A stretch of 33,828 bases of DNA from Gammaproteobacteria bacterium (GTDB taxonomy: Bacteria; Pseudomonadota; Gammaproteobacteria; Pseudomonadales; Pseudohongiellaceae): the NCBI GenBank assembly GCA_009922595.1, contig RFVC01000021.1, forward strand, positions 1 through 33,828. Direction: 5' to 3'. How positions within the stretch are numbered: position 1 is the first letter of the stretch; each line of letters starts with the position of its first letter. This document shows positions 18,073 through 22,700 of the stretch, piece by piece. The notes beneath the pieces are model-generated. The model ran no database searches, had not been told where the DNA came from, and saw nothing but the letters and a program-made list of their open reading frames with translations. A program made the translations under genes and the position numbers.

Positions 18073-19125
<1,053 letters not shown>

Positions 19126-19166
19126 CCAAATATTTCCTCGTTAGAAAAAACTGGTAGAGGTTATTT

Positions 19167-19985
19167 ATCAAATCTCTATTCATACAAAGCTCATCACAAG
19201 GCTATCGGTTACTTGGCCTTGCACTGCTGTCAATGGTAATGATGCTGGTAGACAGCCGGTTCCATTACCTGTCCCAGTTCCGTTTTTACTCCTCCTACCT
19301 GGTTACCCCCTTGCACTGGCTGGCTGATACACCGCGCTCCATCAGTAATTCGGTCAATAACAATTTCCAGAGTCGCAGTTTTTTGATTTCTGAAAACCAG
19401 CGTATGAAAGATCAGCTGCTCATACAGGAGTACAAGCTGCAAAAGCTTTCCCATTTGGTAGCAGAGAATCAGCGCCTGAGCGATCTGTTGAATGCCTCCA
19501 GTATCGTTAATGAAAGAGTGGTCAATGCCCAGCTTACGGGTGAGGCACCGGATCCCTTCACTAAGCGCGTATTGATAAACAAAGGAAGCGAGGAAGGGGT
19601 CTACGAAGGCCAGCCGGTGCTGGATGCCTTTGGCCTCATGGGGCAGGTGATCGATGTGGAGCCCTACGCAAGCTGGGTGTTGCTTATTACTGACCCGCAG
19701 CACTCAACTCCAATACAGATAAACCGTAATGGCAATAGAGCCATTGCCTCGGGAACCCAGGATAGATTAGATCGACTGGAGCTGCAGAATATTTCCGCCA
19801 CATTTGATGTCGTGGTAGGCGACGTACTGGTGACTTCCGGTTTTGGTGGACGTTTTCCGGTGGGCTATCCGGTCGGCGTGGTCAGCAGAGTGGTGCATGA
19901 TCCGGGTGAGCCTTTTGCCACGGTAACTGTTGAGCCTACCGCACAACTAGATAGGAGTCGCAACGTGCTCCTGGTATTCAAGTAA
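19167..19985 (+). CDS. mreC: Rod-shape protein MreC, apparent ATC start codon
   Basis: MreC is a bitopic inner-membrane protein linking MreB to the periplasmic wall synthesis machinery. The first standard start in this frame, ATG at 19233, would remove the cytoplasmic tail and most of the membrane helix. The frame is open upstream to a TAG at 19155-19157. An ATC codon at 19167 follows a GTAGAGG ribosome binding site (19154-19160) by six bases. From there the protein reads KSLF, then a hydrophobic helix (about residues 14-28) ending LVDSRF. This aligns residue for residue with the 32-residue start of E. coli MreC (MKPIF to ADSRL), as I recall it. A coiled coil (about 60-95) and the periplasmic beta domains (GSEEGVYEGQPV, LVTSGFGGRFP) follow. 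The product would be 272 residues. Confidence 0.9.
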   Translation: MKSLFIQSSSQGYRLLGLALLSMVMMLVDSRFHYLSQFRFYSSYLVTPLHWLADTPRSISNSVNNNFQSRSFLISENQRMKDQLLIQEYKLQKLSHLVAENQRLSDLLNASSIVNERVVNAQLTGEAPDPFTKRVLINKGSEEGVYEGQPVLDAFGLMGQVIDVEPYASWVLLITDPQHSTPIQINRNGNRAIASGTQDRLDRLELQNISATFDVVVGDVLVTSGFGGRFPVGYPVGVVSRVVHDPGEPFATVTVEPTAQLDRSRNVLLVFK

Positions 19986-19994
19986 GGCCGGCCG

Positions 19995-20492
19995 ATGGCA
20001 AAGAGACCTAGCAGACATCAGGGTGGCTGGATTATATTTGCGACGTTCGTCATCGCTGCACTCTTAACCGTATTTCCGCTGCCGGAATGGCTTGAATTCT
20101 ACCGTCCTGAATGGGTGGCACTGGTTCTTATATACTGGGTGCTGGCGCTGCCAGACAGGATCGGCTTGTTCAAAGCCTGGCTGGCTGGATTTTTCATGGA
20201 TGTCCTGGAAGGCTCCCTCCTGGGACTCAATGCCCTCGCGCTGGCGATGCTTGCCTACCTTTCCCTCAGCCTCTACCAGCGCATGCGGATGTTTACTGCC
20301 GTTCAGCAAAGCATTACGGTTCTGATTCTCGTTGGTATACACCAGTTGCTTTCATTTTGGGTATTGACCGCAAATAGTCAGAATACGGCGACAAACCTGA
20401 TTTTCATGCTCTCGGCACTGTCCAGTGCCATCATCTGGCCATTTGTCTTTATCGGACTGCGCTACGTCCGAAGAACCTTCCAGGTTGCCTGA
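19995..20492 (+). CDS. mreD: Rod-shape protein MreD
   Basis: MreD is the small polytopic inner-membrane partner of MreC. The 165-residue product has about five hydrophobic helices, a GWIIFATFVIAALL start and a central AGFFMDVLEGSLLGLNAL block that matches the family's conserved F-D-gsllG pattern. It starts nine bases after mreC with an AAGG ribosome binding site. In many relatives maf and rng follow mreD, but here the next gene is an unrelated PQQ enzyme, which marks the start of the accessory region. Confidence 0.93.
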   Translation: MAKRPSRHQGGWIIFATFVIAALLTVFPLPEWLEFYRPEWVALVLIYWVLALPDRIGLFKAWLAGFFMDVLEGSLLGLNALALAMLAYLSLSLYQRMRMFTAVQQSITVLILVGIHQLLSFWVLTANSQNTATNLIFMLSALSSAIIWPFVFIGLRYVRRTFQVA

Positions 20493-20533: not shown

Positions 20534-20579
20534 CTCTAGTTTAGATAGAACGAGTTGAGACTGTGTGAAGGGGAGATAT

Positions 20580-22700
20580 ATGTCCAGATCAAGAATTCTT
20601 TTCATAAGCCTGTTGGCTTTTGTTACAGCTTGCAGCCAGGATGAAGGGACAGAGAATACGGGCGTCACAGCCGAGTCAGCAACTGCAGCCTCGATTGCAG
20701 AAGCAACTTCAAGCCCGCTTAATACTGATTCTATGAGCCAGCCCCCGATGGATTCCTGGCCGACCAATGGCGGCTCTTTCACCAACCAGCGCTGGTCTCC
20801 TCTTTCTCAAATCAATCGTGAAAATGTTAGCCAGTTGAAAGCGGAATGGCGGGTACATCTTAACGGCTCCGGACTTGAAACCCGTTACTCGGCAGAAGGC
20901 ACACCCCTTTACAAAGACGGCGTGCTTTACATGACCACCGGTGACAGTGATGCCTTTGCTGTGGATGTTGAAACGGGTGAAATCAAGTGGGAGCACAATT
21001 CCCAGTATCCTGAAGAAATGGGTGAAGCCGTTTGCTGTGGCTGGGATAACCGAGGCGTGGCCCTTGGCGACGGCAAGGTTTTCCTCGGACAACTGGATGC
21101 CAGGTTGATAGCCCTTGATGAAGAAACCGGCGAGATGGTCTGGGAGCAGCAGAGCGTTCGCTGGCAAGATGGCTACAGCATCACCGGGGCGCCTCTGTTT
21201 TATGACGGCATGGTGATCACCGGTTATTCCGGTGCCGAGAAGGGGGTAAGAGGGCTAGTTGAAGCCTTTGACGCCGCGACAGGTGAAAAGCTCTGGACCT
21301 TTTACACTATTCCAGGCCCCGGTGACTTTGGTCACGATACCTGGCCGCAGGACACAATGGCTTACGAATTTGGCGGCGGTACTGTCTGGCAGACGCCGGC
21401 CGTGGATCCTGAACTCGATCTCGTTTATTTCTCCACCGGAAATCCTGGTCCAGATATGAATGGTGCCATCCGCGAGGGAGACAATCTCTTCACCGACTCC
21501 ATTGTGGCAATTGATGCAAGAACAGGCGAATACCGCTGGCACTTCCAGCAGGTTCATCATGACCTCTGGGACTATGATGCCCCCAACCCGGTGATTCTTT
21601 TTGACATGGAGTACCAGGGTGAAACGCGCAAGGCAATTGCTGAAGCCGGCAAGACCGGCTGGGTTTATATACTGGATCGCGTTACCGGTGAGCCTATTAT
21701 AGGTATTGAGGAAAAACCGGTACCACAGCTGGCCGAGCAACTTACCTCTCCAACACAGCCTCATCCTGTGGGTGATGCGTTCATTCCGCAGCATATTGAT
21801 GTGGCCCCTGAAGGCACGCCGCTGGTTAACCAGGGCAGAATTTTTACCCCGTTCCTGTATGAGCCTGTGCTGGTTCAACCGGGACTGGCCGGTGGTGCAA
21901 ATTGGGCGCCTAGTGCCTATGATCCCTCGCGCCAGGTGATGTATATCTGCGCCTCCGAATCCTCTGTTGTACTATATATGGAGGACACAGATCTGCCTGA
22001 AGAACACAGCGGTAAAACTTGGACCGGTGGCAATTTCGGGGGATCTTCGCGGCCAACCGTAGGCATTGTTGCTGCCGTGGACATGACAACCAACACCTTA
22101 GTCTGGCAGTACCGCTGGCAGGAACCCTGTTACAGCGGCTTCCTTGCTACCGCAGGAGACCTGCTCTTTGTTGGTCGCAATGACGGGCGAATGACAGCAC
22201 TGGATATTGATACCGGTCTGCAGCTTTGGGAATTCCAGACGGGTGCCGGGGCCAATGCGCCGGCCATCAGTTTTGAAAAAGACGGCAAGCAGTACATTGC
22301 CTCATACTCTGGCGGCAACCTATTCCAGGGCTCAGCCCGAGGCGACAGCCTGTGGCTCTTCTCATTGGAAGGTCAAATGGAAGAAACCACTCCAGGCGAC
22401 ACGTTACCGAATGTAGCCTCAGTGGAAGGTGCCGTTCCAGACCAGTTCATGGTGGCAGAGGGTGAGCCGGACTTTGCCGCAGGTGAAACGCTCTACAAGC
22501 AAACCTGTTTGCCGTGCCACGGTGATGACGGCATGGGCGGGCACAACAATGCCATGCCCCTTAACAATGTCTCTTCTATCACCGAAGTTGTGACTATTGT
22601 CTCAACCGGTCGCAACCAGATGCCAAACTTTACCGGCGCACTGACGCCTGAACAGATTAGGGATGTCAGCGGTTTTGTGGCAGACAAGTTGTTTGAATAG
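20580..22700 (+). CDS. PQQ-dependent quinohaemoprotein alcohol dehydrogenase, lipoprotein
   Basis: The product oxidises an alcohol or similar substrate in the periplasm with pyrroloquinoline quinone and passes electrons to a fused cytochrome c domain. The ATG at 20580 follows a GGGGAG ribosome binding site; 706 residues. A lipobox (VTAC, Cys18) predicts a lipid anchor. The eight-bladed propeller shows the vicinal Cys152-Cys153 pair, metal ligands Glu220 (SGAEKGVRG) and Asn288 (STGNPG), and the catalytic Asp331 in WDYDAPNP. The tail carries one haem site, CLPCH (643-647), with a likely Met ligand in QMPNF. The extra Asp333 is two residues after the catalytic Asp, as in lanthanide-dependent relatives. 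Substrate unknown; no PQQ synthesis genes are in the window. Confidence 0.9.
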   Translation: MSRSRILFISLLAFVTACSQDEGTENTGVTAESATAASIAEATSSPLNTDSMSQPPMDSWPTNGGSFTNQRWSPLSQINRENVSQLKAEWRVHLNGSGLETRYSAEGTPLYKDGVLYMTTGDSDAFAVDVETGEIKWEHNSQYPEEMGEAVCCGWDNRGVALGDGKVFLGQLDARLIALDEETGEMVWEQQSVRWQDGYSITGAPLFYDGMVITGYSGAEKGVRGLVEAFDAATGEKLWTFYTIPGPGDFGHDTWPQDTMAYEFGGGTVWQTPAVDPELDLVYFSTGNPGPDMNGAIREGDNLFTDSIVAIDARTGEYRWHFQQVHHDLWDYDAPNPVILFDMEYQGETRKAIAEAGKTGWVYILDRVTGEPIIGIEEKPVPQLAEQLTSPTQPHPVGDAFIPQHIDVAPEGTPLVNQGRIFTPFLYEPVLVQPGLAGGANWAPSAYDPSRQVMYICASESSVVLYMEDTDLPEEHSGKTWTGGNFGGSSRPTVGIVAAVDMTTNTLVWQYRWQEPCYSGFLATAGDLLFVGRNDGRMTALDIDTGLQLWEFQTGAGANAPAISFEKDGKQYIASYSGGNLFQGSARGDSLWLFSLEGQMEETTPGDTLPNVASVEGAVPDQFMVAEGEPDFAAGETLYKQTCLPCHGDDGMGGHNNAMPLNNVSSITEVVTIVSTGRNQMPNFTGALTPEQIRDVSGFVADKLFE

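Follow-up and report, generated by a model that had tools for sequence, protein, structure and literature searches.

Translation of mreC in the window, by which we mean the whole 33,828-nucleotide stretch of DNA analyzed here, very probably begins at an ATC codon (19167) and reflects an old trait of the gene; this is the best explanation overall of the data presented below. We use "AUH" for ATT, ATC, or ATA at the codon homologous to ATC 19167. What was read directly from the genomes is that no canonical start exists, that AUH is conserved, and that the Shine-Dalgarno (SD) sequence is well spaced; initiation at the codon, a low MreC level, and control through proofreading by IF3 are inferred. 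As judged from the aligned genes, an AUH start of mreC is a trait common to much of the Gammaproteobacteria and not the local oddity as which the first-pass annotation of the window had treated it.

The proposed mreC start site in the window

The mreC gene lies between mreB (PF06723) and mreD (PF04093), with the three genes in a row, and gatA and gatB are found upstream of mreB on the opposite strand (open reading frames and Pfam). Positions 20565–22700, right after mreD, encode a PQQ-type dehydrogenase that includes a cytochrome c domain, as identified in the same way. The features relevant to the start of mreC are the following:

18088–19125, plus strand: mreB, ATG start and TAA stop (open reading frame; Pfam MreB_Mbl PF06723, E 2e-146)
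19154–19160, plus strand: GTAGAGG, putative mreC Shine-Dalgarno sequence (sequence; GAGGT matches the anti-SD)
19155–19157, plus strand: in-frame TAG, upstream end of the mreC frame (sequence reading)
19167–19169, plus strand: ATC, inferred mreC initiation codon (conserved ATT/ATC/ATA in relatives; no canonical alternative)
19167–19985, plus strand: mreC coding sequence from the ATC, 272 amino acids (Pfam MreC PF04085; alignment A1)
19224–19229, plus strand: two in-frame CTG codons, residues 20–21, rejected as weaker starts (sequence)
19233–19235, plus strand: first in-frame ATG, residue 23, rejected standard-rule start (list of open reading frames; anchor hydropathy lost)
19995–20492, plus strand: mreD, ATG start (open reading frame; Pfam MreD PF04093, E 3.8e-22)

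The first-pass annotation had stated that no canonical start exists between the TAG and ATG 19233, and our reading of the sequence and of its open reading frames agrees: the mreC frame contains no ATG, GTG, or TTG over this distance and continues after the TAG as AGG TTA TTT ATC AAA TCT. ATG 19233 is the first canonical in-frame codon and becomes residue 23 if the ATC is counted as residue 1. The ATC is found 41 bases downstream of the mreB stop and, as had been proposed and as the coordinates confirm, six bases past the end of GTAGAGG, a region in which GAGGT is complementary to the anti-SD sequence.

Counted from the ATC, the first 34 columns of the alignment with E. coli MreC are free of gaps, and both proteins possess K2, F5, and D29-S30-R31 (alignment A1), which bears out the gap-free N-terminal match that the first-pass annotation had described. 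The peak 17-residue hydropathy within the first 60 residues is 1.84 from the ATC versus 0.36 from ATG 19233, and because of this fall the membrane anchor would be lost with the later start, again as anticipated. A short cytoplasmic tail followed by one N-terminal membrane anchor is obtained only when counting from the ATC, a result that relies on hydropathy without a topology predictor. Further into the protein, residues 125–270 match the barrel core of MreC (PF04085) with 143.8 bits against a cut-off of 28 (E 4.3e-42). The CTG codons at 19224 and 19227, previously listed as weaker alternatives, were both rejected as they would cut into the membrane anchor.

Conservation of the proposed start codon

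MreC was detected in 56 of the 57 genomes searched as relatives, with the window genome counted in. An alignment of mreC starts across relatives, which the first-pass annotation had suggested as a check, revealed that ATT, ATC, or ATA is kept in the genus (6/6), the family (36/36), and most of the order sample (50/56, a figure that contains the family genomes; 14/20 outside the family). Exceptions in the order sample carry ATG or TTG (G040, G041, G045, G049, and G050) or have an N-terminus that could not be aligned (G053), and in two genera the AUH codon is located one codon further upstream, preceding an extra residue. In a second collection, which shares a few genomes with the order sample, AUH was found in 80/80 of the best loci (the best 80 of 588 relatives), namely 57 ATT, 20 ATC, and 3 ATA; 55 of these 80 are titled Pseudomonas by manual count. 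A metagenome contig titled Klebsiella pneumoniae encodes an MreC that is 63% identical to that of the window and of the type found in the window's family, and its title is probably wrong.

A draw across the class identified MreC in 169 of 184 genomes. Inspection of 128 of them gave 77 with AUH, 29 with a canonical start within one codon, and 22 that could not be called. Coverage thus comprises 128 of the 169 MreC genomes plus the window genome and G055, and the remaining 39 (weaker matches, some of them unlisted) are outside the count. AUH was present in 48/64 genomes of the half with better MreC scores versus 29/64 of the worse-scoring half, so the class sample leans towards AUH because the sampling favors MreC sequences resembling that of the window.

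A pooled set of 195 genomes combines 56 from the order sample, 118 from the class draw (ten of the 128 inspected genomes being excluded), and 21 from a phylum draw. It contains 128 AUH codons (69 ATC, 44 ATT, and 15 ATA), 40 canonical starts, and 27 uncalled rows, in most of which a canonical codon lies a few codons off. As 40 of the 195 genomes use ATG, GTG, or TTG at this place, AUH is not essential to mreC. ATH stands exactly at the aligned codon in 110/195 genomes compared with 6–9/195 for every codon from −6 to −2, and ATT, ATC, or ATA at the aligned codon is above chance.

ATG occupies the aligned mreC codon in records of E. coli, Salmonella, Proteus, and Aeromonas, and an Acinetobacter record has GTG one codon from the aligned position. 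For Legionella adelaidensis (NZ_LR134431.1), the annotated mreC begins further upstream and overlaps with the end of mreB; neither AUH nor a canonical codon is found at the aligned position, which is uncallable by the rule used. In each of 20 genomes from other classes of Pseudomonadota, a canonical codon is found by eye no more than 11 codons from the aligned position.

Alternative codons and the Shine-Dalgarno sequence

Among the 128 AUH rows of the pooled set, the stretch between the upstream stop and codon +8 is free of ATG, GTG, and TTG in 97. Some such in-frame codon exists in 31, located upstream in 19; at least one of the latter, G156, carries an ATG three codons before the AUH codon and was probably scored as AUH in error, being a normal ATG start. 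The mreB gene served as a control from the same loci: of the 165 loci (out of 195) in which it was located, 163 show ATG, GTG, or TTG where its start is expected.

An SD match of at least 4 bases at a spacing of 4–9 was found for 100/129 AUH starts, 11/45 canonical mreC starts, and 202/1698 internal Ile codons taken from the same AUH mreC genes. Ignoring spacing, a match of at least 4 bases was present for 111/129 AUH versus 22/45 canonical mreC starts, and for mreB in AUH genomes a match of this length was present in 60/104. This pattern is consistent with an SD sequence that makes up for a poor codon, although it has not been separated from kinship: a test on independent pairs of AUH and SD state gave a median p of 0.5 with only five supported pairs, too few to reach significance. 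Predicted folding was weaker in the start region than in an internal stretch in 79/129 cases, which is only a slight difference. Overall, the ATC start proposed by the first-pass annotation is supported by AUH conservation, a well-spaced SD sequence, and upstream stops in some genomes.

Evolutionary history

When the AUH or canonical state is mapped onto a gene tree of 222 rows, at least 24 changes are required compared with 36–43 in 30 shuffles, which indicates that the start-codon state follows descent. Rooting with an outgroup produced a near tie, an AUH ancestor of the class needing 23 steps and a canonical one 24; for this analysis, all 20 rows of the outgroup were assigned the canonical state by decision, since the automatic rule gave 7 canonical, 12 uncalled, and 1 AUH. 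AUH therefore appears to be old in mreC, with the ancestral state of the class unsettled by parsimony. We infer that AUC, AUU, and AUA starts may have been kept for a long time in the Gammaproteobacteria and that ATG, GTG, or TTG would have taken over in lineages such as Enterobacterales.

Late annotation in Pseudomonas aeruginosa

The mreC frame of P. aeruginosa CP123788 reads TAG GAG CGG ATC ATC AAA CCG. In this record (CP123788.1, 219–1131), the annotated start is an internal GTG at 267, 16 codons past the second ATC of the frame. When counted from its ATC, P. aeruginosa MreC aligns over residues 1–275 with residues 1–275 of 7eft_A (367 residues), the solved chain of E. coli MreC.

Counting from the GTG of CP123788 puts a Glu at 188 and an Arg at 190. 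A paper on the P. aeruginosa MreC structure names Glu188, Arg190, and a construct of residues 36–330, and it places both the cytoplasmic residues and the membrane region in the first 14 residues (PMC8137920). Because Glu188 and Arg190 fit the count from the GTG and the 14 residues match a truncated N-terminus, we infer that the numbering of that paper follows the late start; 14 residues are too few for an anchor plus a tail. "Full length" MreC constructs designed from the late annotation would have no cytoplasmic tail and an incomplete anchor. More generally, gene callers restricted to ATG, GTG, and TTG likely err at mreC, and the protein can be annotated too short.

Comparison with known non-AUG starts

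The infC gene was found in 28/28 relatives. In the window genome itself (G000:C91), infC has no ATG, GTG, or TTG before the IF3_N domain, where ATT and ATC are present, and for this reason it is very likely, as far as can be inferred from sequence, that the cell from which the window derives starts translation at AUH codons. mreC resembles genes of the infC and pcnB kind in that no canonical start is available, AUH is conserved, and the SD sequence is strong and well spaced, with independence from kinship unshown. The best reading of these comparisons is that mreC may be counted as a new, and old, member of this kind of AUH-start gene. Among the papers listed in searches of an open-access library, none was seen to deal with a non-AUG mreC start or its spread over much of a class; subscription journals were mostly outside the search, so that a prior account in print is possible.

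The inefficient AUU start of E. coli pcnB, the subject of a 2002 paper by Binns and Masters, is said to limit the expression of this gene. Here, as proposed for mreC, a chromosomal gene would be limited by a poor start codon without being autoregulated. By eye, no clear conserved AUH start of pcnB could be recognized in 28 order-sample genomes, as its N-termini vary and the homologous start could not be placed, whereas mreC has AUH in order-sample genomes of this group.

mreC resembles infC in the conserved AUH start and strong SD sequence, which infC, an essential gene, displays in a wide range of bacteria. infC controls itself via IF3, an autoregulation described in PMC5472188 and PMC5559785, whereas mreC, whose product is a membrane protein involved in cell elongation, is not known to be linked to IF3. 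Streptomyces sigR comes second in a gene pair, and its GTC start, which is repressed by IF3, keeps the two genes in ratio; this start had been misannotated to a canonical codon and was tested experimentally (PMC5472188). sigR is similar to mreC in its non-canonical start and canonical misannotation and differs in codon, phylum, and function. In Staphylococcus aureus, the AUU start of cvfC1 and the AUA start of ccpN are conserved and accompanied by an extended SD sequence, and AUU and AUA reporters reach about 10% of AUG, with ccpN at up to 30% in rich medium (PMC13009471). The AUH starts of cvfC1 and ccpN are conserved among staphylococci in that account, whereas AUH in mreC spans much of a class.

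Alternative explanations

The idea that the window genome really has ATG here, and that the ATC arose from a base error or during assembly, can hardly be entertained: the window genome is a draft of 307 contigs without a read-level check, but each of the five congeners carries ATT or ATC at the aligned codon, and the 80/80 AUH loci of the second collection (the best 80 of 588) come mostly from named isolates. Because AUH is conserved at the homologous codon across relatives, a sequencing error at the ATC appears unlikely, and as a general account of AUH, base error is already refuted by these alignments. We also consider it very improbable that mreC starts at its first canonical codon (ATG 19233 in the window, GTG at +16 in P. 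aeruginosa), yielding a protein with no tail and a shortened anchor. ATG 19233 is the start by the standard rule, and P. aeruginosa CP123788 is annotated at its GTG, yet the residues preceding such codons are conserved, with K2 and F5 nearly invariant in alignment A1, and align with the N-terminus of ATG-type MreC such as that of E. coli. The downstream canonical codons, moreover, vary in place among genomes, many rows have none in the first 15–20 codons, and in the window the start at ATG 19233 forfeits the anchor (0.36 against 1.84). Highly unlikely, too, is an entry of translation from upstream, through a 5′ non-AUG codon, stop read-through, or a frameshift out of mreB, which would make AUH an internal Ile codon. 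The 19 AUH rows (of 128) with an upstream in-frame canonical codon and the genomes in which the frame stays open for many codons upstream (e.g. G186) would allow it, but in-frame stops are located within four codons upstream in 29/128 rows, in nine of them at codon −1 or −2, ATH drops to 6–9/195 at codons −6 to −2, and the SD spacing suits the AUH codon.

A different possibility, unlikely in our estimate but one that should be kept in mind, is that initiation does occur at AUH and that the codon is a neutral relic, with a strong SD sequence restoring output and no regulatory meaning. AUH has been swapped for ATG, GTG, or TTG in several lineages (24 changes at the fewest) with no consequence visible from sequence, and a better SD goes with AUH, both of which a relic would explain. 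However, ATG is one base away, and AUH has nevertheless been kept in the whole family and in every one of the 80 best second-collection loci (of 588), with ATC, ATT, and ATA interchanging within it. Because AUH is kept and its three forms interchange despite the easy change to ATG, selection for a poor start is suggested. The proposal that MreC abundance matters in P. aeruginosa (PMC8137920) likewise speaks against a codon without meaning.

Proposed mechanism and implications

In the reading that we prefer, initiation of mreC at ATC 19167, the GTAGAGG SD sequence would position the 30S subunit at the ATC and the ordinary initiator fMet-tRNA would start translation there, giving a 272-residue MreC with a short cytoplasmic tail and a membrane anchor. 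The poor codon, partly offset by the strong SD sequence, would hold MreC low relative to MreB, and IF3 proofreading would act on the AUH of mreC as on those of infC and pcnB, both steps being inferred. By analogy only with these genes, with sigR, and with the S. aureus AUU and AUA starts, and without expression, peptide, or ribosome-profiling data, it is plausible that the ATC keeps MreC low and IF3-sensitive. For P. aeruginosa, accumulation of MreC has been proposed as a signal (PMC8137920). For a self-associating scaffold with proposed signaling by accumulation, keeping MreC scarce would be sensible, a link to that work that is our own.

A broader and more speculative proposal, which we regard as rather doubtful at present, is that in much of the Gammaproteobacteria IF3 gates MreC synthesis via the ancient AUH codon, with the MreB:MreC ratio, and through it wall elongation, being set by the condition of the initiation machinery, and that ATG lineages (e.g. 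Enterobacterales) would have moved control elsewhere. Apart from infC, few bacterial genes are known in which an AUH start has persisted over long evolutionary times; mreC, a gene for cell shape, would provide a class-wide case that is easily testable in Pseudomonas.
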